Source of the DNA: Bacteroidota bacterium
GTDB lineage: Bacteria; Bacteroidota; Bacteroidia; Flavobacteriales; Flavobacteriaceae
DNA: 47,769 nt
Assembly (NCBI GenBank): GCA_024279425.1
Contig: JAJRRO010000021.1
Coordinates: forward strand, 1-47,769
Direction of reading: 5' to 3'
The position numbers and the translations under genes were made by a program. Under the pieces are notes generated by a model. The model ran no database searches and was not told where the DNA came from. It saw only the letters and a program-made list of their open reading frames with translations. Shown here piece by piece: positions 194 through 32,276 of this stretch; within the stretch, counting starts at the first letter, position 1, and each line of letters begins with the position of its first letter.

Positions 194-353
194 CCAAATT
201 AAATATAGATTGTAACCACATCTCTCAAACTTAGTAAATTTTACAGCTCACCTGTTAAAAGAATTGGGGAAACGATTACGATTTTCTCAGCTCTTCACTT
301 AAAAATCATAAACTTTATGTACTGTAATTTAGCTCCTTAGCATATAAACGCAT

Positions 354-834
354 ATGCCAACAAGCTATCCATATCTTCAACTTAAAAAAAAATGCATTGC
401 ATTGGGAGCATTTATTCTTCTGGGATTCGGAAGATTGCAGGCCCAAGAAGCAATATTAACTGCCGGGGGGGATAGCTTTGGGTAATGGAGGCTCTGCAAG
501 CTACTCAGTTGGACAAGTAATCTATATCACCAATACAGGAATAAACGACATTGTTGTACAAGGTGTACAACGGCCCTATGAGATTATAGTTGAATCAGGG
601 GGAGGGATAGATATAAATCTTGTCTTATCGGTTTATCCAAACCCCGCAACCGATTTTCTGACATTGCAAATGGAAGATTTCGAAGGGCAAAATTTACAAT
701 TTCAATTGTTTGATATGAGTGGCAGATTGACAGCGAGTGAACGAATCACAGGTAAAAATACCGATATAATGGTGGGACACTTTGACTCTGGGGTATATAC
801 TTTAAAGGTTATAGATATCAATAGCCCAATTGAA
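354..834 (+). pseudogene. Small T9SS type A sorting-domain protein, frameshifted
   Basis: From ATG 354 the frame encodes a signal peptide (hydrophobic LGAFILLGFG, then QAQEA). It stops at TAA 483, in the middle of the conserved SYSVGQV-type repeat that these proteins carry. The sequence resumes one frame over (GNGGSASYSVGQV), consistent with one extra G around 480-482. Downstream comes a classical type IX secretion sorting domain: VYPNPATDFL, the FDMSGRL strand and the GVYTLKV strand. Such domains send proteins through the T9SS to the surface. There is no stop at the usual end of the sorting domain: the frame runs into the next gene. It is a pseudogene unless the frameshift is an assembly error. 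Confidence 0.7.
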
Positions 835-2128
835 ACGAAAATATTTACATTTTTGGCAATGACGTGGTCAACTTTATACTTATTTGCCCAAGCACCTGAA
901 AGGATAGCTTACCAAGCTACAATATGGGATACAAATGGTAATTTGATGACTGATGCTACTATAGGTATTCAAATAAGTGTTTTACAAGGCTCCTTTACAG
1001 AATACCGGTATATATAGAAATACAAACCCCAAATACTAATGCGAATGGATTGGTAAGTTTTGAAATGGGAAATGGAATAGTGGTTTCTGGAGCTTTTGAC
1101 GCTATTGATCGGTCCTCAGGCCCTTATTTTATAAAAACTGAAATTGATCCCAATGGAGGAATTAATTGCTCCATAACAGGCTCAAGTCGAATAGTAAGTG
1201 TACCCCATGCCTTACATACCAACGCGGCAGACAGTATTACAGGTGTGATTAATGTTTTTGGTTCATCTATAGCCAATGGTATTACGGCTACCGACATCGT
1301 CAACTGGAACAACAGCAGCACGGACGGCCAGAACATCAGCGGCTCGGGCCTATCGGGCACCGACCTGACGATCGAGATCGAAGGGAGTTCCTCTGAGACC
1401 GTAGACCTTTCGAGTATTGCTAGCGCGGATAACCTAGGCAATCACACTGCGGCACAAAACATACAGCTTGGTATAAATTACCTCTCAGGTGATGGGGACA
1501 ATGAAGGTATCTATGTTGATGTGAATGGCAATGTAGGCATTGGTACAAGTAGTCCCACCGAAACCATGCAGGTAAATGGTTCTATTAAAATTATTAATAG
1601 TACGGAAGGTGCCTATAAAGTCCTGACTTCAGATGCCAATGGAGTGGCTAGTTGGCAAAGCCACCAACCAGTTTACCTACAATTATCGACAATACTACTC
1701 AACAGCCCAGCACAACAGACCCAACACCAATAACTTTTTCAACCCATGAGGTAGCGAGTAGAATAAGTCATGCTCCTGGGTGCAGTACAATAATTATACT
1801 TTCGTCTGGCGCGTATAATATTGTTGCCCAACCCCAAGTGAACAGAAATACAAGTGCTGGAACAGGACAGTTTCATTGTTGGTATCAAATAGATACTGGA
1901 AGTGGTTGGGTAAATGTCTCAAACTCGAATATATTTTTGGACATGCCCTCTGTAAATAAAGACGATGTTATCATTGTAAGTATAACACAATATTTTATTG
2001 CAAATGACAAACTACGTGTAATGATGTCGGTTAATGATATATCAAGAAATATTAAGTTAAAACCGGTACTCTCCATTCCAAATGAGCCGGATATTCCATC
2101 CATTATTTTTACTATGTTTAAAATATAA
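835..2128 (+). pseudogene. Fibre/adhesin-like secreted protein, multiply frameshifted
   Basis: The residues KIFTFLAMTWSTLYLFAQ look like a signal peptide whose ATG has become ACG at 835. They are followed by APERIAYQATIWDTNGN, the typical start of flavobacterial fibre-like surface proteins. The frame breaks near 1000-1015 and again near 1650, so three consecutive frames are needed to read it. The middle part (GNVGIGTSSPTETMQVNG) is the motif found before tail-fibre or chaperone domains in this group. The C-terminal part after 1652 has no recognised domain and ends at 2128. A surface or filament role is inferred from motif resemblance only. The reading frame is fused to the upstream sorting domain without a stop. 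Confidence 0.6.
1279..1453 (+). other. GC-rich mosaic segment inside the fibre-like pseudogene
   Basis: This stretch is visibly richer in G and C than the AT-rich coding sequence on either side. It encodes a module reading NISGSGLSGTDLTIEIEG and SSETVDLSS, which resembles short modules repeated in very large flavobacterial surface adhesins. The abrupt composition change inside one gene suggests that the module was swapped in by recombination. It is described from composition and motif only. Confidence 0.4.
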
Positions 2129-3741: not shown

Positions 3742-4371
3742 ATGTTAAAAGTTTTGTTAGTCGATGACCATGAAATATTAAGACAGGGGTTAAAAAAAAT
3801 AATTGATTACAACTTCACCAAAGTGGTGTACGGGGAAGCGGGAAATAGTGCAGAAGCCATAAAACTGGCATTTAAACAACCTTGGGATGTTATAATAATG
3901 GATATAAACATGCCCGGAAGAGATGGTCTGGACATTATTAAAGAATTGAAATCCAATGGTATTAAAACTCCGATATTAGCCCTAAGCATGCACCCTGAGG
4001 AGCAATTTGCCTTGAGGGCAATCAAAGCTAAAGCTTCTGGGTATCTAACTAAAAATAGTGCTCCAACAGAATTGGTAAAAGCCATTAACACGGTACTGAA
4101 CGGGAAACAATATATTACAGATTCCGTCGCCCAAATTTTAATCTCGGATATAAGGAACGAAAATCAGTTAAATTCCCATTCCATTTTATCCGATAGGGAA
4201 CTACAAGTATTACAATTAATTGGAAAAGGCTTGTCCGTGTCTCAAATTGGTAAAGAACTATCACTGAATGTGAAAACCATAAGCACCTATCGAGCCCATA
4301 TACTATCAAAAATGAACATGAAATCCAATGCTGATATTATTCTCTATGCAATAAAGAATGAGCTTGTGTAA
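3742..4371 (+). CDS. NarL/LuxR-family response regulator
   Basis: This 209-residue protein has the standard two-domain layout. An N-terminal receiver (LLVDDHEILRQGL, acceptor Asp in VIIMDINMPGRDG near residue 55, conserved Lys in GYLTKN) is followed by a C-terminal LuxR-type helix-turn-helix (LSDRELQVLQLIGKGLSVSQ to KTISTYRAHILSKM). Family members bind DNA as dimers after phosphorylation. The gene follows the kinase pseudogene by 14 nt and was presumably co-transcribed with it. The regulator is intact while its partner is destroyed, so it may now act unphosphorylated, through another kinase, or through acetyl phosphate. Confidence 0.93.
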   Translation: MLKVLLVDDHEILRQGLKKIIDYNFTKVVYGEAGNSAEAIKLAFKQPWDVIIMDINMPGRDGLDIIKELKSNGIKTPILALSMHPEEQFALRAIKAKASGYLTKNSAPTELVKAINTVLNGKQYITDSVAQILISDIRNENQLNSHSILSDRELQVLQLIGKGLSVSQIGKELSLNVKTISTYRAHILSKMNMKSNADIILYAIKNELV

Positions 4372-4474
4372 TAGTTATGACAAAATAATTCAATTCACAT
4401 TTTTCCGTTCGGCATTTTCTTTCCCTAGGTCTATCTCCTATACTTATTAGGCATGCACTTTTAACACATAATGT

Positions 4475-4615
4475 CTTAAATTAAAAACAAGCGGATATAG
4501 GACAAACACTGATTCTTATATGAAAAAGTCTGATAAAAGAATTAGACAAGTGATTAGAACATTTTCAGTTCTAATCTTAATAACTACCAACTATTTACAT
4601 AGTAATTTTACCTAT
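4475..4615 (+). repeat. Leader repeat copy A (inverted relative to copy B at 20022-20163)
   Basis: The sequence beginning CTTAAATTAAAAACAAGCGG matches the reverse complement of 20022-20163 over its whole length. The match is nearly 90% by eye over the first ~85 bp and lower afterwards, with one single-base indel. The copy sits 229 nt upstream of the receiver gene at 4704. Copy B sits 210 nt upstream of the gene at 19953, so each copy has the same orientation and nearly the same distance relative to its downstream gene. Both contain a related short ORF. Confidence 0.75.
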
Positions 4616-4639
4616 AAGATAAATAAAGTCAATGAGTGA
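4520..4639 (+). CDS. Short ORF in leader copy A (39 aa), related to 19959-20126
   Basis: ATG 4520 opens a 39-residue frame starting MKKSDKRIRQVIRTFSV and ending at TGA 4637-4639. The other leader copy encodes WKKSDERVRQVISIFSV in the same position. Several differences are conservative (K/E, I/V, L/F), as expected if the peptide was under coding selection. The central part is hydrophobic. It ends 64 nt before the receiver gene at 4704. The shorter C-terminus suggests that copy A is degraded or truncated. Function is unknown: it could be a leader peptide or a small membrane protein. Confidence 0.35.
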   Translation: MKKSDKRIRQVIRTFSVLILITTNYLHSNFTYKINKVNE

Positions 4640-4703
4640 TATTGAATGTTTAAATTTAATAACTAGACGAATATATATTCCAAGAATTTAATTCTCGACT
4701 ATC

Positions 4704-5096
4704 ATGAAAATAAAAAAAAGCACCATATTGTACATCGATGATGAAATCAGCAACATCTTTATTTTTAAAAAACTTTTTGATGGTTATTACAATATAATTA
4801 CGGCACTATCTGGATTCGAAGGGCTTCAAATGTTAGAAAAGCATCAAATAGAGTTGGTTATTACAGATCAGCGTATGCCAAAGATGTCGGGGCTGGAATT
4901 CTTAAAAAAGGTAACACAAAAATGGCCAAATATAAAAAGTATTATGTTATCGGCTTATTCTGATATGGACATAACATATTCTGTTATTAAAGATTTAAAG
5001 GTATTGCGATATATAACTAAACCCTTTGATCAAATAGAAATGAAATTACTTATCGATTGGGCCATTGAATTGCAACTAATAGAAATTGAAGAATAG
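4704..5096 (+). CDS. Stand-alone receiver-domain protein
   Basis: The 130-residue product is a single receiver domain. Acidic pocket residues are in YIDDE (12-14), the acceptor Asp55 is in VITDQRMPKMSG, a Ser is in LSAYSD and the conserved Lys is in YITKPFD. There is no output domain. The DQRMP and ITKPFD motifs put it closest to the RpfG-like receivers that precede PAS or HD-GYP modules. The receivers starting at 14607 and 14987 in the same block have the same signature. It is convergent with the six-gene operon ending at 5309 and preceded by leader copy A. It probably relays phosphate or binds a partner protein rather than DNA. Confidence 0.88.
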   Translation: MKIKKSTILYIDDEISNIFIFKKLFDGYYNIITALSGFEGLQMLEKHQIELVITDQRMPKMSGLEFLKKVTQKWPNIKSIMLSAYSDMDITYSVIKDLKVLRYITKPFDQIEMKLLIDWAIELQLIEIEE

Positions 5097-5177
5097 GGGA
5101 AGTGAATTTTCATTGTTTCATTTAACCATAAATTTAAGATTAAAAATATAACTTGACTTACTGTCCTAATTTCGGGG

Positions 5178-5208
5178 GGGGGAATTATAATCTACTATGA
5201 TTTCCCCC
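5178..5208. terminator. Possible bidirectional hairpin between convergent genes
   Basis: GGGGGAA at 5178-5184 can pair with TTCCCCC at 5202-5208 across a 17-nt loop, between the convergent genes ending at 5096 and 5309. The G run is nine bases long (5174-5182). There is no strong T-tract, so terminator function is uncertain. Confidence 0.25.
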
Positions 5209-5308
5209 ATTGTTAAGACTCAGTAATTCTCTAATTTTGACCTCCTTTTTTTGCTTATCGCAGCTTTAAGCACCTTCCTAGTAATGGGAAAAGATACAAT
5301 TTGGCTAA

Positions 5309-5749: not shown

Positions 5750-6895
5750 TTACATTTTAATTGTAAAATAGAACTCACTTCCTTTATCGCGTATTGATTC
5801 CACCCAAATTTTCCCATTATGCAGTTCTACGATTTTTCTGCATTGGGCAAGACCAATTCCCGTACCCTCATAGTCTTGTTTATTGTGCAGGCGTTGAAAA
5901 ATAATAAAAATAGTTTCATAGAATTTTTCATCTATACCAATGCCATTGTCCTTAAATTTGAATTCCCAAGTATCATCTTGTTTTCGGGATGAAATATTGA
6001 TAATGGGAGAGACACCCTCTCTACAATATTTAAGAGCATTGCCAATAAGGTTCCCGAATAATTGCTTTAATTCAATAGGATAAGCGTTTAAGGTAGGGAG
6101 TGGTCCACTTTCAATTTCACCTTGACTTTCGGAAATAACTACCTGAAAATCTTCTAACACCAAGCGCAGTATTTCATGGCAGTCCACTCTTTCTGCAGCT
6201 CTTCCCTTACCTAGTATGGAATATTCGAGTAGCCCATGTATTAAATTTCTCATCCTATTGGTCGACTCAAGAATAAAACGAATGTATATATCGGCATTGT
6301 CATCGAATTTGCCTCTGTATTCCTGATCAAGGAGTTCAACAAAACTTGAGACCGTACGCAGGGGTTCTTGCAGGTCATGTGAGGAGATATAAGCAAATTG
6401 TTCCAATTCGTTATTTTTGCTTTCAAGTATTGCCATGGACTGCTCTAATTCAGCAGTTCTTTCAGCAACCTTTTTTTCTAGCCATTTGTTAGTGTTTTTT
6501 AATTTGTCCCTATTGGTTTTTAGTTCTATATGTGTCTTAACTCTTGCCAATAACTCATTACTGTTAAAAGGTTTGGTAAGGTAATCCTGTCCACCATGTT
6601 CAAAAGCTTTTTCAATGCTATCAATGTCAGTTCTAGCTGTAAGGAAAATTACGGGGATTTCATTTTTTTTCTCTCTCTCTTTAATTCTCTTACAGACCTC
6701 AAAGCCATCCATTTCTGGCATCATAATGTCTAGTAAGATGAGTGTGAAATCTTCAGAATTAATTAGATCTAATGCATCGAAACCATTTAGCGCATAGTCT
6801 ACATCGTAGTTTTCTTCAATAAGAAAGTTTGCCAATACTTGAATATTTTTGTCATTGTCATCAACAATTAGAATTTTGTGAGCGTTATTTTCCAT
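5750..6895 (-). CDS. Receiver-linked histidine kinase (REC-HisKA-HATPase)
   Basis: The 381-residue protein starts with a receiver (ILIVDDNDKNIQVL, Asp near 56 in LILLDIMMPEMDGFEV, Lys in YLTKPF). A coiled coil follows (about 125-165), then a HisKA domain with the phospho-His near 172 in ISSHDLQEPLRTV, and a HATPase with NLIGNALKYC, DNGIGI and GTGIGL. There are no membrane segments, so it is cytoplasmic. SHDLQEPL kinases usually donate to Rcp1-like receivers, which matches its 3' neighbour. Its start overlaps the 3' end of the hybrid kinase by 11 nt, which implies translational coupling. The receiver probably accepts phosphate from that hybrid kinase and gates the kinase part (inference). Confidence 0.92.
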   Translation of the reverse strand: MENNAHKILIVDDNDKNIQVLANFLIEENYDVDYALNGFDALDLINSEDFTLILLDIMMPEMDGFEVCKRIKEREKKNEIPVIFLTARTDIDSIEKAFEHGGQDYLTKPFNSNELLARVKTHIELKTNRDKLKNTNKWLEKKVAERTAELEQSMAILESKNNELEQFAYISSHDLQEPLRTVSSFVELLDQEYRGKFDDNADIYIRFILESTNRMRNLIHGLLEYSILGKGRAAERVDCHEILRLVLEDFQVVISESQGEIESGPLPTLNAYPIELKQLFGNLIGNALKYCREGVSPIINISSRKQDDTWEFKFKDNGIGIDEKFYETIFIIFQRLHNKQDYEGTGIGLAQCRKIVELHNGKIWVESIRDKGSEFYFTIKM

Positions 6896-9800
6896 TATGT
6901 TGAGAATTTAAATTTTCAATAAAATGGGGGAATTGTTGTATCAATTCCTTTTCTTTGGTGATGTTGAACAATTTACATGCCATATGTAAATCTTCTCCGT
7001 AGTTTATTAAAGGTGCCACTTTATATTTTTTACCTATTTCCAATAGCACGTTTGCCAAAAGAAGTACTTTTTTCTTTTGTCTAACGATTTTTATGTCTTC
7101 CCAAAGGGGCATTACCTTTTTCTCGATTTCCAATATCAAGTCCTCAAGATTGGCAATAGGTTTAAATATGATATTAGAAATAGTTTCTTTAGAATCAGCG
7201 ACAATAGAATATTTAATATATCTCTTTAGTGTATTAAGTAGAGCTGTTGCACTTACAGGCTTTCTAATAAAATCGTTAAACCCCTGATCAAGTGCTTTAC
7301 GCTCATCTTTATCAAATACTGAGGCAGTAAAGGCAACAATGGGAATATGGGACCACTCTGGAGTTTTCTTGATGGCATCATTAGTTTCAACACCATTCAT
7401 ATTAGGCATCCTTAGGTCTAGAAAGATTAAATCCGGGTTATGTTTTTTGATGGCTATAAGTGCTTCTTGTCCATTTTCAGCTTCTACTATATTAATACCA
7501 TAACCTTTTATGTATTCTTTTAAGAGGTCTCGGTTTGTTTTAATATCATCTACAATTAGAACTGTGGATTTTTCAAATTCAATCAAATTGGAATCAAATT
7601 CTATTTTTTCTTCCGCTTTTATATCCTCCTTACCAATGTTGACCTTCTCTAATGTAATTGTAAAAGTACTGCCTTCGCCTTTCTTGCTCGTTAATTCTAT
7701 CTTTCCGTTCATTAATTTTACAAATTGCTGCGTAATAGCAAGACCTAAACCTGTACCTTCATAATTTTTATTGTCCATCATATCCATTTGGTCGAAGGCC
7801 TGAAAAATTCTTTTGTGATCTTTTTTAGGTATACCAATTCCGGTATCTTTTATTTTTAGAATTAGATTCAAAGACTTGCCAGTATTGTTTAGGAATGTCA
7901 CTGCTACCTCTATAGACCCTTGATTCGTAAATTTTATGGCGTTGTTTATTAGGTTTATTAGTATTTGCTTTATTCGTAATTCATCAATGAACAATACCCT
8001 TGGAAGATTTTTATTAATTACCATATTTAATTCTAATCCTTTTTCTATTGCTTTTACTGTAAACATATTAACCACTTCCTGAACAAGTGTTTTAACATTT
8101 ATTGCCTCATAATTAAAGTCAAATTTTCCAGATTCAATCTTACTTAAATCTAAAATATCGTTAATAAGGGTTAATAGTGTATTACCACTGGATCGTATAG
8201 ATTCAATGTATTGAAGTTGCGTTTGATCTTTAATGTGTTTGGATAAAATTTCTGAAAACCCTAAAATAGCATTCATTGGGGTGCGAATTTCGTGACTCAT
8301 ATTGGCAAGAAAATTACTTTTTGCCTTATTGGCATTATTAGCTTCTATTTTAGATTTTTCTGATTCTTCAAAAAGTCTTGCATTCTTAACGGCAATAGCT
8401 GCATTCGAGGCAAATGCCGTAACTTGTTGGGAATGTTCTAGATTAAAGTAATCTACCTTGTTCTTATCCAATGTTATTCTGCCTATATGATTATCATCAA
8501 TAATTAAAGGAACTGCCATGGTCGAACGAATGCTCTTAGTTTGTGATAAATCTTTGAATAAATGGTGAGATCGAGTATCTTTTATGATTATTGTTTTTTT
8601 TTGATCTTTTTCTATTTTTGAAAAAATATCCGAGTCTAATCTAAAACTTTTATGAAGCACTTTCTCAGGAGAAAGAAATCCTGAAACGGCAACTATTTCG
8701 AAATAGTCTCCTTTTAAAACTTGAACAGTTCCACTATCAAATGAAAGTACATTCTTAAGTTCAGAAAGTACTAGGCTCAATACCTCCTTCAAAGATAAAG
8801 TACTACTTAATTCTTTGGAAACATGGTATAATGCTTCTACCTGTTCTTTAGATTTTATTAGTTCGTTTTCCAAAAGTTTCCGTTCAGTAATATCTTCTTT
8901 TACAGCAACAAAATGGGTGATTTCATCTTTATCATTAAAGATGGGCGAAATAGAAGTGCTTTCCCAATATTCTTCTCCCGACTTTTTCTTATTAATTATG
9001 TCCCCTCTCCAGGTTTTTCCAGATAAAATAGTTTTCCATAAATTTTCGTAAAACTCTTTCCCGTGTTTGCCTGACTTTAATATACTCGATGGATGTCCTA
9101 TACCTTCATCAAATGAGTATCCAGACGAAGTAGTAAATGCAGGATTAACATATTCAATTACTCCCGCTTTATCAGTAATAACAATTGTCGTTAAACTCTG
9201 CTCTATGGCATGGTTTAATTTTTTTATTTCTTCTTCTGTTTTTTTTCTATCATTAATATTAGCCCAATAACCAATTATTTCTCTCACGGTACCGTCATCG
9301 TTATAAATTAGTCGCATTTCATCATGAACCCACAGATAAGAACCACTACGATGTTTAAAGCGGTATTCAATTATATGGAAGCCATGTTTAAATAATTCAG
9401 GTATTTCCTCTAGAAACTTTTGTTTATCATCTGGGTGAACATTGTTTATCCAAAACTCACTATTGTCGGTAAATTTATTAGGGGGATAATCAAATAATTG
9501 CTTGACATTAGCACCTACAAATGTAATTCCAAAATCGCCCACTGTCTTGCTTGTATAAATGGCTACAGGATTAGAAGAGATAAGATAGTTCAATCGAGCT
9601 TCACTTCTTTGTAGAGAAATTTCAGTATTTTTTAGTTCACTAATATTTATGCCTGTTCCTATCCTATATTCTTTGCCAGATATTTCGGTTGGCATAATTG
9701 TGAAGAGATAAGGAGTAACTCCTTTAGTTGATTTTATTTTTAATTCAACATTAATAGCTTTAGTAATATTGGTAAAACTGTTAATTGCAAGCGCTCTATC

Positions 9801-14607: not shown

Positions 14608-14987
14608 AATTTCCCTTTTTCATTGATTCATAAATAATTTGACGTAAACTAACTTCTTCCCAAGGATTAGAAATGAATTTATAGAGATTATATTTTGAAT
14701 ATGTTTCTTCAATTTCCTTTGAATGGCTAAAACCAGAAAGTATTAATCTAGCAGGGGGTAAATGTGGAAATTGTTCTTTTATTATTTTCAGCAATTCAAC
14801 ACCTGACATTTCTGGCATATGCTGATCAGTTATCACAACATCTATATTTTCGTATTCAAGAGTTTTAAGACCTTCCTTTCCGGAAGTTGCTGTGTAAAGT
14901 TTAAACTCTATTAATAGTTAATTTAAAAAGTCTAAGGTTAATCTCTTCATCATCAACATATAAAATTTGCACTTTATTTTGTTTCAT
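14600..14987 (-). pseudogene. Stand-alone receiver, frameshifted
   Basis: ATG at 14985-14987 opens a receiver (QILYVDDEEINLRLF) that stops after about 30 codons at a TAA inside the repeat-like AGAGTTTAAAC around 14890-14900. In the next frame the domain continues as KLYTATSGKEGL, then the acceptor site VITDQHMPEMSG and a degenerate Lys region (FISNPWEE), to the stop at 14600. One or two missing bases would restore a complete ~128-residue receiver. It starts 8 nt after the Reg_prop kinase and overlaps the next gene by 8 nt. Either it is freshly inactivated or this is a sequence error. The downstream part could restart at an internal codon but would lack the acidic pocket. Confidence 0.75.
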
Positions 14988-14995
14988 TTGTACAA

Positions 14996-17900
14996 CTATT
15001 TAATGTTAGTTGGTATTTTCATTACAAATTCAGTTCCTTTACCCGCTTCACTTTCAACTTCAATCCTCCCTTTATGTTTTTTAATTATGCCTTGGCAAAT
15101 GGACAAACCCAACCCCGTTCCTTTTCCTTCGGTTTTTGTGCTAAAGAACGGGTCGAAGATTTTAGCGATAATATCCTCAGGTATTCCTTTACCTGTATCA
15201 CGAATTGAAATTATTAGTTCGCCGTTTTTCGACTGGGTATCTATGGATATAGTTCCTTTGTTGTCGATGCTATCCATGGCATTGTCCAACAAGTTAACAA
15301 ATACCTGGTTAAGCTGCCCCGGAAAGCAATTGATTTTCTTAATGTGGCTTTTATAATTTTTGATAATCTCTATTTTGTGTTTGTGTTTATCGGTTAACAA
15401 TAAAAGGGCAGAATCTATACTTTCATGTACGTCTGCCCGCTGTAGTTGCTCATCTTCAGAACGGGAATATAGCATGAGGCCCCTTATTATTATATTGGTT
15501 CTTTTAACCCCTTCATTGATATCTTCTATTGTTTGAGGTATGGTCCGAAGGATATCATCGAAGTAATGCTTTTCCTTTAATTCATTCATGACTTTGGCTT
15601 TTTCTATTAATTGTTCACCTTCTTCAGGAATGTCTTTACACACATTAATTATAGTTATGAGGTCTTTGAAATCCCTATCTAAATTATTAACGCCTACAGA
15701 GATGAAATTGATAGGATTGTTGATTTCGTGGGCAATACCGGCCGTAAGCACTCCCAAAGATGCCATTTTTTCGGATTCCACAAGTTGTGTTTGGGTTTGT
15801 TGGAGTTCCTTAAAGGTGGATTCGATTTCCTCCTTTTGCGCTACTACGGTAGCCGTCCGCTCAACAACTCTTGACCCAAGTGTCCTTTTTTGCCTTTCAA
15901 TTGATCGGGTTCTAAATTTTACAAAACTTATCAATAAGAATATACCCGCAATCACATAACCAATTCTTGCCCACCAGGTATGCCACCATGGTGGTAATAC
16001 AATAATTCTTACACTTGCACCTTCATTATTCCAGGTGCCATCATTATTTGAGCCCTGTACTTTAAAAACATACTCTCCGGGAGATAGATTTGTATAGGTT
16101 GCGGTACGGTCCTCTGCCGATTTATAATTCCAGTTTTTATCAAAATTTTCTAGGATATATTTATATCTATTATTTTTCGGCGAAACATAATCAAGTGCTG
16201 AAAACTCAAATGAAAACACATAATCTCTGTGAGTAAGAATTATTTCTTTGGTAATTGTTATGTGTTTTTTAAGTGGTGAATCAGCACCAATCTCTACCGA
16301 TTTATTAAACAACTGAAAGTTGGTAATAACAATTGAAGGAATGTGTTCATTTGTTTGAATGTCTTCCGGATAAAACTTAATAAAACCATTGGGACTGCCA
16401 AAATACATTTCTCCGTTACTACCTTTGAGGCTACTCCTTAAATTAATATGATTATTTAAAAGCCCATCTTGTTTTCCATAATTTTGAATCGTTTCTGTAT
16501 CAGGGTTGAATTTTGACAAACCATTAAAAGTTCCAATCCATAGGTTACCTTTGGCATCCTCCAAAATATTTCCAACCATATCACTGGGTAAACCATCTTT
16601 CGTGTTATATGTTTTGAAAGACTGTTTTTTATAATCATAAAGGCTAAGGCCACCAGGTGTCCCAAACCATAATCGTTCTTTGCTGTCCTCAAAGATTGTT
16701 TGTACTGTATTATTTGGTAGGCTGTAAGGATCATCTTTTTTATTCTTGAATATTTTGAACTTTTTATTATCCCTGTCAAATAAATTTAAACCATCGATTG
16801 TACCTACCCATAGGTTTTCTTTGTTGTCTTCGAAAATAACCCATACCCTATCTGAGCTTAATGCGGTCGTATCCGTATTATCCAGATAAAAAGGTGTGAA
16901 ACTATCTTCTATTCTGTTATAAAAGTGCAGTCCGCAATCATGGGTGCCAATCCAAAGATTTTTCCTACTGTCTTCAAATATGGCATAGATATTCTGGTCA
17001 CATGATGAGCCTGGGTCATTTGCATAAAAAAGATATCTTTTAAATTTCTGACCCTTCCTATCAAAACGGTTTACTCCCCCCCCCCAAGTACCTACCCATA
17101 AATAACCATAACTGTCTTCCCCGAAGGATAAAACTGCATTACTGCTTAAACTGTTTGGATTCTCCGGTTCATGAATAAAATGTCTGAAAGTATTTTTTTC
17201 TTTATTGAATAAGTTTAATCCCCCATGGTCAACCCCAATCCAGACTTCACTGTCCTTATCTTCATAAAATGCTAGAATCGATTTTTCTAATAACCCAGCT
17301 GAATTACCCTTTACATACTCAAAATGTTTAAAAGAATTGTAATGCGTATCAAATATATTAATACCGCCCCAATGTGTCCCTACCCATAAAAGCCCTGACC
17401 TGTCCTGGTAAATACTCCAAATCTGGTTATCACTTAAGCTTGTATCAAAAAGACCTTGCTTAAAATGAATAAATGCGTTATTTTCCCTATCAAATAAATC
17501 TAAGCCAGAATTAGTTCCAACCCATACCCTGTTTAGGTCATCTGTATAGACAATACCGATAGCTTTTTCACTTAAACTTTGGGGGATTGAGTCATTATGT
17601 ATGTAATGTTCAAAAATAACCTGTTCGTTATTCAGGTCAATCCGGTCTAATCCACTGTTGGTAGGTACCCAAAGGTATCCCTCATTGTCTTCCGAAATGT
17701 GCCAAAGAAAATTATCGTTTATACTGTTTTTGTCATGTGGGTCAAATTTGTAATGGGTAAACTTTTCTGTTTTTCTATTAAATAGGTTTAAACCACCGCC
17801 ATGAGTTGCTATCCAAAAGTTACCCTTACTATCTTCACAAATACTTATGACATAATTATTACTCAAACTATTTGCGTCATTTTCATCATAAAGGAGACGT

Positions 17901-18423: not shown

Positions 18424-18856
18424 CTTGTTCCTTCGCGAACTTCACTTTCAACTTCACTTCTCCCTTTATGTTTTTTAATTATGCCTTGCAAATGGACAAA
18501 CCCAACCCCGTTCCTTTTCCAACGGATTTTGTGGTAAAGAACAGATCGAAGATTTTAGCGATAATATCCTCTGGTATTTCTTTACCTGTATTATAAATTG
18601 AAATTATTAGTTGGCCGTTTTTCGACTGGGTATCTATGGATATAGTTCTTTTGTTGTAGATGCTATCCATGGCATTGTCCAACAAGTTAACAAATACCTG
18701 GTTAAGTTGCACCGGAAAGCAATTGATTTTCTTTATGTGGCTTTTTCTATTAATTGTTCACCTCCTTCAGGAATGTCATTAAGTACATTAATCATAGCTA
18801 TGAGATCTTTGAAATCCCTATCTAGATTATTAGTGCCTACAGAGATAAAATTGATA
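18424..18856 (-). pseudogene. Partial second copy of the Reg_prop kinase 3' end, internally deleted
   Basis: On the minus strand 18424-18741 repeats the HATPase part of the previous gene (QLNQVFVNLLDNAMDSI, EIPEDIIAKIFD, GKGTGLGLSIC), matching about 15025-15350. The region 18742-18850 matches 15595-15708. The intervening 250 bp present in the intact gene are missing. In the intact gene this stretch is bounded by the direct repeats TGGCTTTT at 15345 and 15595, so slippage or recombination between short repeats explains the deletion. It removes conserved kinase sequence and shifts the frame. The copy is then cut off by an IS3-type transposase fragment at about 18857. Confidence 0.85.
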
Positions 18857-19163
18857 GATAGAGGGTCACAATATGCCAGTTACAATTTTGCCAATATCAT
18901 TAAAAGTTATGGTGGGATTGTAAAACAGAGTATGGGCAGAAAGGAAAATTATTGGGACAATGCAGTGGCGGAATCATTCTTTTTAGAGCTTGAAAGTGGA
19001 ATGGGCATATAAACACAATTACAGTCTTAGATCGGAAGCCGAACTGTCCATCCTCCAATGAATAGAGACTTGGTACAACAAAAGAAGAATGCATTCTTCT
19101 TTGGGATATAAAACCATAGAAGGATTTGAAATGGAAACATTTATTCAAAAGGTAGCAGTATGA
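18857..19163 (+). mobile_element. IS3-family transposase (OrfB) C-terminal remnant
   Basis: The sequence encodes DRGSQYASYNFANII, then MGRKENYWDNAVAESFF and WYNKRRMHSSLGYKT. These are the second Asp region, the catalytic Glu region and the tail of IS3-family OrfB integrases. A frameshift lies near 18995 (stop at 19010-19012), and there is an in-frame TGA where a Trp codon is expected. The first half of the transposase and OrfA are missing. The left junction sits inside the duplicated kinase fragment, so the element probably inserted there and was later deleted together with kinase sequence. Confidence 0.85.
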
Positions 19164-19284: not shown

Positions 19285-19953
19285 CTAATAATTAAGCATG
19301 TTCACATCTGTGTAAATAATAGATGACTTTTTTAAGTCATAGACGACGGCATCATCATTGAAATCAAAATATAACCCCCAATATTTGAAATAGTCACCTT
19401 CAGTATTGTCCGAGGACATGATACCCAACATTTTTGCGCTGTTTTCAGGGGAATCATCTTCAAATACAGGTATGTAAATCTCAAAAGGAACTTCTTGAAA
19501 CTGTTTTGTGTAATACTCATAATTATTACCTATGGCATTTAAAATATTCCTTAATTGGCCCGGAATACTATTTTGATATACTCTTTTAACGATTATGGAT
19601 ACATTGTTTAAAAAAAAAGAAAACTCCTCAATATCAATGGGTAAACTATTGGACTCTTGTAATTTGGAGAACGCTTTGGAAAACGTCGTCGCTATTTTAT
19701 TGGTATTCTTACCAGCTGTATCTCTCATTATTTTATTTTTTAGAAAATAAAGCGCTTCGTTCAAATTAAAGTTGGTGTTCATTTCTATTACCAAATTCAC
19801 AAAATTCTTGTCTGATGAACAATTTCGAATGGAGACGTCAGAAAAAAAATGTTTCTCCAGGCATTTTCTAAACACGTTCAACCCCTCTATTTTAGGGTTG
19901 TCATCGAACTTTATTTTTAAGCAGTTTCCCAATCCGAATATATCTTGATCCAT
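19285..19953 (-). CDS. Hypothetical protein, 222 aa
   Basis: I do not recognise a family. The protein starts MDQDIFGLGNCLKIKFD, has no signal peptide or membrane segment, is rich in Asn, Asp and Phe, and looks like a soluble alpha/beta protein. The segment FEIYIPVFEDDSPENSAKM near residue 155, followed by YWGLYFDFNDDAVVYDLKK, looks like packed beta-strands near the end. It stands alone, transcribed leftward, 5 nt downstream of a 55-residue ORF in leader copy B. The base composition is like that of its neighbours. Because it shares its leader with the receiver gene at 4704, joint regulation is likely (inference). Confidence 0.7.
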   Translation of the reverse strand: MDQDIFGLGNCLKIKFDDNPKIEGLNVFRKCLEKHFFSDVSIRNCSSDKNFVNLVIEMNTNFNLNEALYFLKNKIMRDTAGKNTNKIATTFSKAFSKLQESNSLPIDIEEFSFFLNNVSIIVKRVYQNSIPGQLRNILNAIGNNYEYYTKQFQEVPFEIYIPVFEDDSPENSAKMLGIMSSDNTEGDYFKYWGLYFDFNDDAVVYDLKKSSIIYTDVNMLNY

Positions 19954-19958
19954 AAATG

Positions 19959-20126
19959 TTAAAAAAATGAGCGGGTTATTATTAGTTTGACAAAATTGAT
20001 TTTTGTGCTAAATATTACATAATGGACCAAATTACCAAGTTCAAAGTATGTTGCTATTAAGAGAAAAACTGAAAATATGCTAATCACTTGTCTAACTCTT
20101 TCATCAGACTTTTTCCATACAAGCAT
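19959..20126 (-). CDS. Short ORF in leader copy B (55 aa), small membrane protein candidate
   Basis: ATG at 20124-20126 opens a 55-residue frame reading MLVWKKSDERVRQVISIFSV, then a hydrophobic stretch LLIATYFELGNLVHYVIF and a basic tail ending RSFF. The TAA is at 19959-19961. The stop lies 5 nt before the start of the 222-residue gene at 19953, as in an operon. The N-terminal half is related to the 39-residue ORF at 4520. One membrane helix flanked by basic residues is plausible. Confidence 0.45.
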   Translation of the reverse strand: MLVWKKSDERVRQVISIFSVFLLIATYFELGNLVHYVIFSTKINFVKLIITRSFF

Positions 20127-20163
20127 AAGTGTTTGTCCGATATCCGCTTGTTTTTGATTTAAG
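20022..20163 (-). repeat. Leader repeat copy B (inverted relative to copy A at 4475-4615)
   Basis: The reverse complement starts CTTAAATCAAAAACAAGCGG and follows copy A for about 140 bp. Homology stops exactly where the DUF1028 reading frame opens on the other side (about 20161), so this boundary is a rearrangement or insertion point. No target-site duplication is visible next to either copy. Confidence 0.75.
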
Positions 20164-20868
20164 AGAGAGTCACATTACAGACAAGTTTCTGGTATCGATG
20201 CCAAGGAGACGGTATATGCCTTTACTGGTAGAGCTTTAAAATATTGGAGCGGTAATGCTGCACATCAATATGGAAAAAATTACGTCGTCATTGGAAATCA
20301 ACTAGTCGATAGTGTTTTGAGTAAAATGGCCGAAACCTATGAAAAATCTAGGGGGACACTTGCAGAACGTCTTTTAGAAAGTTTGATAGCTGGTCAAAAA
20401 GCAGGTGGGCAGGTTACATGAAAACAGTCTGCGGCTTTAGCTGTAAAAGGAAATAATCATGAATGGTTCAACCAAATTGATTTACGAGTAGATAATTCCA
20501 AAACACCCTTTAATGACTTACAAGTTTTGCTGAATTATCATTATGGGAGAATTAGAGTAAATCAAACAATTTATGCGCTCAAAATGAACAATGAAAAACG
20601 AGCACAAGATCTAATAAAAAAGGCCCAATCAATCACTTGTATTGTGTCAGCAAAAAGTGAACTCTTTTAGGTTAAATTACAAGAGAGTGTTTATAACCCA
20701 TATAAACACTTAAATTTAACCACAATAAACCCAAAAGAGGTATTAAGTTTAGGTCAAAAAGAAGAGATTGACAGGGTTTATACAATATATCCTGAATTGA
20801 ATGACGATAATTTTGTAACTGAAAATATTGACAGGTGGCTGGGTTTAAACAAAGAAGAACTATCTTAA
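20158..20868 (+). pseudogene. DUF1028 (Ntn-hydrolase-like) protein, 5'-truncated with two in-frame stops
   Basis: The frame opens inside the edge of the leader repeat and encodes HYRQVSGIDAKETVYAFTG, then ALKYWSGNAAHQYGKNYVV, TLAERLLESLIAGQKAGG and IDLRVDNSKTPFNDL. These are the hallmarks of DUF1028 proteins, which belong to the Ntn-hydrolase fold. The N-terminal third, which should hold the nucleophile, is absent. The rest stays in one frame but carries TGA at 20419 (before KQSAAL) and TAG at 20668, and ends at TAA 20866-20868. The C-terminal ~65 residues after the TAG match the extension present in some family members. It was the first gene of the catabolic operon before truncation. Confidence 0.82.
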
Positions 20869-31400: not shown

Positions 31401-32276
31401 ATGCACAACTTTAAAGCAAATTACGAGATAATTTTGACAGTACTCAAACAAATATCACAAGAGACCCTGTTGCCGTACCAAAGGCGTAAGCCTATGTTGT
31501 CGGACATTGAGGTTTCCATGAATCTTGCGGCGGAGTATCTGGGAATCGATAGTGAGTGCGACCTGTTCAGAAAATTGCCCCCGGAACTATCCTCTGTCAT
31601 CGAACGCAGTGTTTATAATCGTAGACCCCGCAGGCTCTTTCCCTATCTTGAGCAAATAAGGACAAAACTATCGGGCCTTCTCAATCAAAATGAAGACCAC
31701 TTCATTATAGACAGTATGCCTCTCGAAGTATGCAAACTGTCAAGGAGCGGTCGGAGCAAGATATGTCGAAATGCTTTTTACAGCGCGCCCAATAAGGGTT
31801 ATTGTACTTCACAATCGATACATTATTACGGTTACAAGCTTCACGCCACCTGCTCGGCATCAGGTGTTTTTCAGAGTATTGACATAAGTCCGGCATCGGT
31901 ACACGACATACACTATCTTAAAGACATAAGGGCCCGACTTAAGGACTGTACACTCATTGGCGATAGAGGCTATCTCTCGGCAGAGTACCAGCTAAACCTA
32001 TTCGAGACCTGTAAAATCAAGTTGGACACGCCAATGCGAAGAAATCAAAAGAATTACAGGCAACAACCTTATATCTACAGAAAATCAAGAAAGAGAATAG
32101 AGACTCTTTTTTCACAACTTTGCGATCAATTCATGATAAGAAGAAACTATGCCAAGTCTTTTGAGGGATTTAAAACAAGGATACTCTCCAAAATATCAGC
32201 GCTCACAATTGTACAGTATATCAATAAGACCATTTTCAACAGAAACATCAACAACATAAAAATCAGCATTATTTAA
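31401..32276 (+). CDS. IS982-family transposase
   Basis: The 291-residue transposase is full length for the family. The DDE residues are in HFIIDSMPLEVC (Asp near 103), IGDRGYLS (Asp near 188) and KRIETLFSQL (Glu near 233). The N-terminal helical region starts MHNFKANYEIILTVLKQI. The gene ends exactly at the right terminal repeat. It is higher in GC than its surroundings, which suggests recent arrival, and it is probably active. Confidence 0.93.
   Translation: MHNFKANYEIILTVLKQISQETLLPYQRRKPMLSDIEVSMNLAAEYLGIDSECDLFRKLPPELSSVIERSVYNRRPRRLFPYLEQIRTKLSGLLNQNEDHFIIDSMPLEVCKLSRSGRSKICRNAFYSAPNKGYCTSQSIHYYGYKLHATCSASGVFQSIDISPASVHDIHYLKDIRARLKDCTLIGDRGYLSAEYQLNLFETCKIKLDTPMRRNQKNYRQQPYIYRKSRKRIETLFSQLCDQFMIRRNYAKSFEGFKTRILSKISALTIVQYINKTIFNRNINNIKISII

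Follow-up and report, generated by a model that had tools for sequence, protein, structure and literature searches.

A short element repeated upstream of signalling and secretion-cluster genes in a Flavobacteriaceae genome is a candidate shared promoter or leader

In a Flavobacteriaceae genome (assembly GCA_024279425.1), two inverted copies of a short sequence frame a block of signalling genes, each copy standing ahead of a different and unrelated gene, which raises the question of what such a sequence does: whether it encodes a peptide, promotes rearrangement of the DNA between its copies, or places the genes behind it under common control. A first-pass annotation of the window (here, the whole stretch of DNA analysed, 47,769 nucleotides, which is the complete contig C38) had described this pair and read it as a duplicated leader peptide or small membrane protein, or else as a recombination substrate. 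The pair itself is confirmed, with BLASTN aligning 20029-20164 to 4608-4474 at 83.8% over 136 positions (E 2e-34), and repeat finding recovering it as two adjoining arm sets, I1 (87 nt, 82%) and I2 (54 nt, 89%). The distances given for it to the downstream ATG codons also hold, at 229 nt (4475 to 4704) and 210 nt (20163 to 19953).

Across the host genome (140 contigs) the pair is not alone, since three further copies bring the number to five. Four copies are strongly supported (C38:4460-4640, C38:20029-20164, C51:25054-25217 at 76%, and C128:3233-3366 at 72%), and the four matches besides these all have E ≥0.44. A sequence model built from these four full copies (copy 1, copy 2, C51 and C128; hereafter R1) adds a fifth, partial copy at 251-339 (35.4 bits, E 4.5e-8), its remaining 14 genome matches (E up to 10) all having E ≥0.43; run on the window with filters off, R1 gives three matches at E <1e-9, the next one being at E 0.09. 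The annotation was therefore right about the pair but incomplete in its count, as one missed copy (251-339) lies inside the window itself. A degenerate 22-base pattern based on the two copies and allowed up to three mismatches matches both sites and has no match in 100 shuffles, a control that is partly circular because the pattern derives from the copies themselves. The window holds the following copies:

251-339, plus strand: decayed partial copy without its 5' part, covering R1 positions 66-154 of 158; outside the R1 training set.
4468-4619, plus strand: copy 1, before the lone receiver gene; R1 115.6 bits over model positions 3-156; part of the R1 training set.
20018-20170, minus strand: copy 2, before the gene for a 222-residue protein; R1 125.5 bits; 84% identical to copy 1 by BLASTN.

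All five copies are co-oriented with the gene that comes next, three gene families are represented among these genes, and the edges of the element are common to the copies while the flanks are unlike between gene families (BLASTN). Within the window, the genes concerned are:

354-1017, plus strand: broken gene for a protein sorted by the type IX secretion system (T9SS), 3' of the decayed copy; two frames match the C128 protein, with PF18962 in 478-1017.
4704-5096, plus strand: lone response-regulator receiver of 130 amino acids, 3' of copy 1; PF00072, E 4e-20.
19285-19953, minus strand: protein of 222 amino acids, family unassigned, 3' of copy 2; no Pfam match at 0.01 and no NCBIfam match at 0.1.

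The element precedes both the lone receiver gene and its closest paralogue, on C51, which is 51% identical over residues 1-109. In this paralogue VITDQRMP has become VIVNKIKP and ITKPF has become TSNPF, substitutions that remove the phospho-acceptor aspartate and the conserved lysine; it has no Pfam match at 0.001, and its frame is still open (L066, 8578-8979). None of the 15 other receiver-like places in the genome (of 17, at E up to 1e-5 and ≤38% identical) stands directly behind any of the five copies. The C128 copy lies directly before a gene whose 169-residue product has a T9SS sorting domain; this protein has two genome places at E up to 1e-6, both of which carry the element. The 222-residue protein has one paralogue in the genome (40%, on C140), and this one lacks the element, with nothing above 7.9 bits in the surrounding 12 kb. 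As a separate observation, a receiver-like stretch at 14633-14905, 34% identical to the lone receiver, lies in a 105-codon open frame immediately 5' of a receiver-PAS gene.

Evolutionarily, block duplications carried element and gene together in the receiver pair and in the T9SS pair. Aligned outwards, the receiver pair shows an identity of 116/152 within the element, against 32/64 ahead of its 5' edge; the spacer follows with 59/83, the coding sequence with 251/376 and the stretch beyond the coding sequence with 61/102. Because the alignment starts at that 5' edge, the element forms the leading end of what was duplicated. Neutral drift after duplication also fits these values, since the element is just slightly better conserved than spacer and coding sequence. 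Over the first 109 codons of the receiver pair, 18 changed codons are synonymous and 53 are not (31, 30 and 36 differences at codon positions 1, 2 and 3), which points to constraint weakly, if at all. Certain copies may be relics, because the C51 receiver is degenerate and the copy at 251 is decayed with its gene broken. Three further likenesses were seen around these genes. The stretch 256-1244, which takes in nearly all of the decayed copy and, at 354-1244, the broken T9SS gene with the beginning of the gene behind it, aligns to C128 over 1032 columns at 71% identity; 6446-6942 is 86.7% identical over 497 nt to C128 486-982, where a second receiver-kinase-like gene starts; and, read by eye, a similar inverted repeat GGGGAATTATAAT...TTCCCC stands behind each of the two receiver paralogues, in the window at 5160-5215, and may be a terminator.

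The agreement among the four full copies changes along their length. In alignment columns 1-105, copies 1 and 2 share 90/103 positions and copy 1 shares 73/103 with C51; in the final 50 columns the figures are 42/49 for copy 1 with C51, 30/49 for copy 1 with copy 2 and 35/49 for copy 2 with C128. There are 17 gap-free sites that split the copies two against two: eight group copy 1 with copy 2, seven pair copy 1 with C51, and thereby copy 2 with C128, and two divide the third way. With the two third-way sites omitted, the 15 ordered sites open with seven that are all of the copy 1-copy 2 type, and of the eight that follow, seven belong to the copy 1-C51 type, a clustering around one breakpoint (between alignment columns 84 and 94) that has a permutation p of 0.0024 when the breakpoint is left free in every permutation. 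A wider alignment including gaps and flanks gives the same mosaic trend. As the simplest reading, this pattern suggests gene conversion between the two inverted window copies, upstream of the breakpoint.

Structurally, RNAalifold on the four full copies predicts one 7-bp hairpin and one 3-bp stem, the former falling in the window at:

4528-4547, plus strand: possible hairpin or palindrome GTCTGAT-6 nt-ATTAGAC in copy 1 (RNAalifold on four copies).
20090-20109, minus strand: matching possible hairpin in copy 2 (RNAalifold).

Pairing is possible in 26 of 28 cells across the four copies, as against 25-43% in six controls slid by 1-3 columns, and the alignment energy of -7.5 compares with a column-shuffle mean of -2.4 (z -2.8, with 7/500 shuffles as low) and with -2.1 on the opposite strand; 4/300 shuffles match the best 7-bp stem. 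The changes in the stem are a U-A/C-G exchange in one of the seven pairs and several G-U changes, and in a pair-dealing control on the 3' letters, 83/500 trials reach the covariation score and 406/500 the count of doubly changed pairs. Folded singly, copy 1 beats its own shuffles (z -3.2) and the other three do not, the minimum-energy fold of the C51 copy being one without the hairpin. The hairpin pattern with up to two mismatches has 18 genome matches, four of them the elements, against 12 for a reversed control, and is not clearly enriched; the Rfam 15 covariance models at gathering score have no match in the window. For the arms, a palindromic operator in the DNA is as good an explanation as a hairpin in the RNA.

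As far as sampled, the element is confined to this genome, with no convincing copy elsewhere. BLASTN of copy 1 against 39 other relatives gives a single match of 25-43 bases in each of four genomes (E 0.003-0.007). R1 gives nine weak matches in six of 11 other genomes of the genus at E up to 0.1 (best 8.5e-4), matches in two of 396 other genomes of the family at E up to 0.001 (22-24 bits), and one match in each of three of 394 other genomes of the order at E up to 0.001; these draws of genomes overlap, and weak matches are lost to the stricter filters applied at the family and order levels. Eleven of the 14 weak R1 matches (two from the family, nine from the genus, three from the order) lie inside an open frame of at least 175 codons that covers more than 80% of the match, and three do not. 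Both family-level matches fall within a reading frame that we take to be ccoG; an origin of the element from ccoG was considered and set aside, as the common GGACAAACA is read in another frame there and the match was treated as chance. No close relative of the lone receiver was found in the 11 other genomes of the genus at 1e-14, and a genome contig collection gave one distant match to it, from Planctomycetota.

Functionally, we consider the element most likely to be a shared promoter or leader that was copied along with its genes, a reading drawn from sequence comparison. Among the possible functions, common control of these genes through such a promoter or leader ranks first, at what we judge to be about an even chance, with neutral debris as its main rival. 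The roughly 150-bp noncoding upstream module would then be the promoter region and/or the transcribed 5' leader of a few genes of the signalling and secretion cluster; it would carry a transcription start or an operator or leader hairpin, by virtue of which its genes would share control, perhaps exerted by a neighbouring two-component regulator, and ectopic gene conversion would have homogenised the upstream part of copies 1 and 2. A LuxR-type regulator gene lies nearby, at 3742-4371. In favour of this reading are the contexts of the copies, the joint duplication of element and gene, the mosaic, the hairpin pairing and the noncoding character of the element. Against it, no promoter consensus was identified: the consensus of Bacteroidota promoters is TTTG-N15-23-TANNTTTG, and its strict pattern has four exact matches in the window, where 5.1 are expected, with none inside a copy of the element. 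Also against it are the small margin by which the element is better conserved than its surroundings, the weak support for the helix, the many receiver domains and the C140 paralogue that lack the element, and the possibility that some copies are relics. In Porphyromonas gingivalis, a two-component pathway, PorY-PorX-SigP, is reported to control T9SS component genes (PMC4800418); the likeness lies in a two-component pathway linked with T9SS genes, whereas in the present genome the T9SS-linked genes resemble secreted cargo and their tie to local regulators is positional only. Duplicated promoter or 5' regions of paralogous bacterial genes that undergo ectopic gene conversion are also similar, in that an upstream region duplicates with its gene and short patches are homogenised, but here the most alike pair (84%) fronts unrelated genes and is inverted and 15.5 kb apart. 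The earlier idea of a leader regulating unrelated genes is thus kept for its duplicated, leader-like region upstream of unrelated genes, but not for its encoded peptide.

The reading that competes best with a shared promoter or leader is that the copies are neutral debris, that is, upstream remnants that a decaying locus was left with after rounds of duplication, rearrangement and conversion, and that now serve no shared function, and we regard this as a tentative but serious possibility. Signs of decay are plentiful: kinase fragments at 18427-18857 are 90-92% identical to 15033-15352 and 15595-15714, a broken DUF1028 gene adjoins copy 2, the T9SS gene is broken, the C51 receiver is degenerate, and the element of the receiver pair is about as conserved as the neighbouring spacer and coding sequence. 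Debris would sit less easily with five copies each of which stands ahead of, and points the same way as, a gene from one of three unrelated families, with edges that are common while flanks differ between families, and with four copies that can form one and the same hairpin. Of the damaged genes, the kinase fragments match the 3' part of a Reg_prop sensor kinase gene and look like a truncated, internally deleted duplicate, and the DUF1028 gene (20158-20667) lacks its 5' part and adjoins the upstream edge of copy 2, its pieces, searched separately, matching PF06267 at E 1.5e-19 and 0.0018.

We think it improbable that the copies stem from a small, MITE-like mobile repeat inserted ahead of unrelated genes. 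Common edges between unrelated flanks are what such a repeat would leave, copy 2 adjoins the truncated DUF1028 gene, the C128 copy carries, close to the edges of the element, an imperfect inverted repeat of 11 nt, and a frame ending 18-32 nt before that copy resembles, by eye, what we take to be the end of an IS transposase. However, no terminal inverted repeat is common to the four full copies among the pairs listed (for copy 1, the five longest of nine), and orientation to the genes is constant. Neither plasmids nor phages match copy 1 with its flanks (4400-4703) at 0.01, and exact-pattern scans of species-genome and viral collections, from which the host genome record may be absent, found nothing.

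A conserved leader peptide or small membrane protein is a very unlikely alternative to the shared promoter or leader, and we dropped it on account of stop codons, a 1-nt deletion and codon-position counts. The short open reading frame reported for the two inverted copies is present between them, but in copy 2 the KKSD is preceded by TGG rather than ATG, so that its start must come from further upstream, at the ATG of MLVWKKSD. Copy 2 has 71 uninterrupted codons between stops, a forward frame of at least 70 being open in just 2.2% of first-order random sequences of its make-up, and the proposed frame is the least interrupted of the six in copies 1 and 2. Against this, the frame is interrupted by one stop in C51 and by two in C128, and copy 1, whose own frame is open from its ATG, has a 1-nt deletion relative to the other three where the frame starts, so that codons upstream of that point cannot be common to all copies. 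Between the two inverted copies, 14 of 28 codons differ, 13 of them non-synonymously and one synonymously, and the likeness of the two short frames is therefore a likeness of DNA. Differences at codon positions 1/2/3 in the six pairs are 16/6/10, 13/12/11, 16/14/13, 20/17/14, 17/15/12 and 18/19/9, with position 3 the fastest-changing in none, and neither peptide matches Pfam or NCBIfam. The arrangement recalls leader-peptide attenuators in that a short stretch ahead of a gene may contain a hairpin, but differs in that no reading frame is preserved across the four full copies.

An inversion substrate, through which the 15.5 kb between the copies would flip and switch gene order or promoter use, is likewise highly improbable: the copies are inverted and bear the signature of exchange, but they share no exact run longer than 16 nt and the 17 window proteins scanned with Pfam include no site-specific recombinase. 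Exact identity of 16 nt is short for homologous recombination, and because identity never exceeds this, frequent inversion of the 15.5 kb is unlikely; an invertible segment would be bounded by long, near-identical inverted arms, and here the arms are 84% identical over 136 positions. The sole mobile-element protein among those 17 is a DDE transposase at 31401-32276. The invertible promoters of Bacteroidota are alike in having inverted copies near regulatory genes, whereas the copies here are 15.5 kb apart and imperfect. From the proposal of a recombination substrate, then, probable sequence exchange between the inverted copies is retained, but inversion of the 15.5 kb is unsupported.

Returning to the shared promoter or leader, its most specific form would be a new structured 5' leader or operator, confined to this genome within the sampling, that serves one small regulon (the lone receiver, the secreted T9SS-sorted protein and the 222-residue protein) and whose inverted copies are kept alike by gene conversion; put together in this way, the claim is a doubtful one. 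More generally, the locus cautions that reading frames common to two noncoding repeats can mimic a conserved peptide. If the element is regulatory, it would show the birth of a small regulon, in which an upstream region spread with duplicated genes, its copies across a signalling cluster later being made alike through gene conversion.
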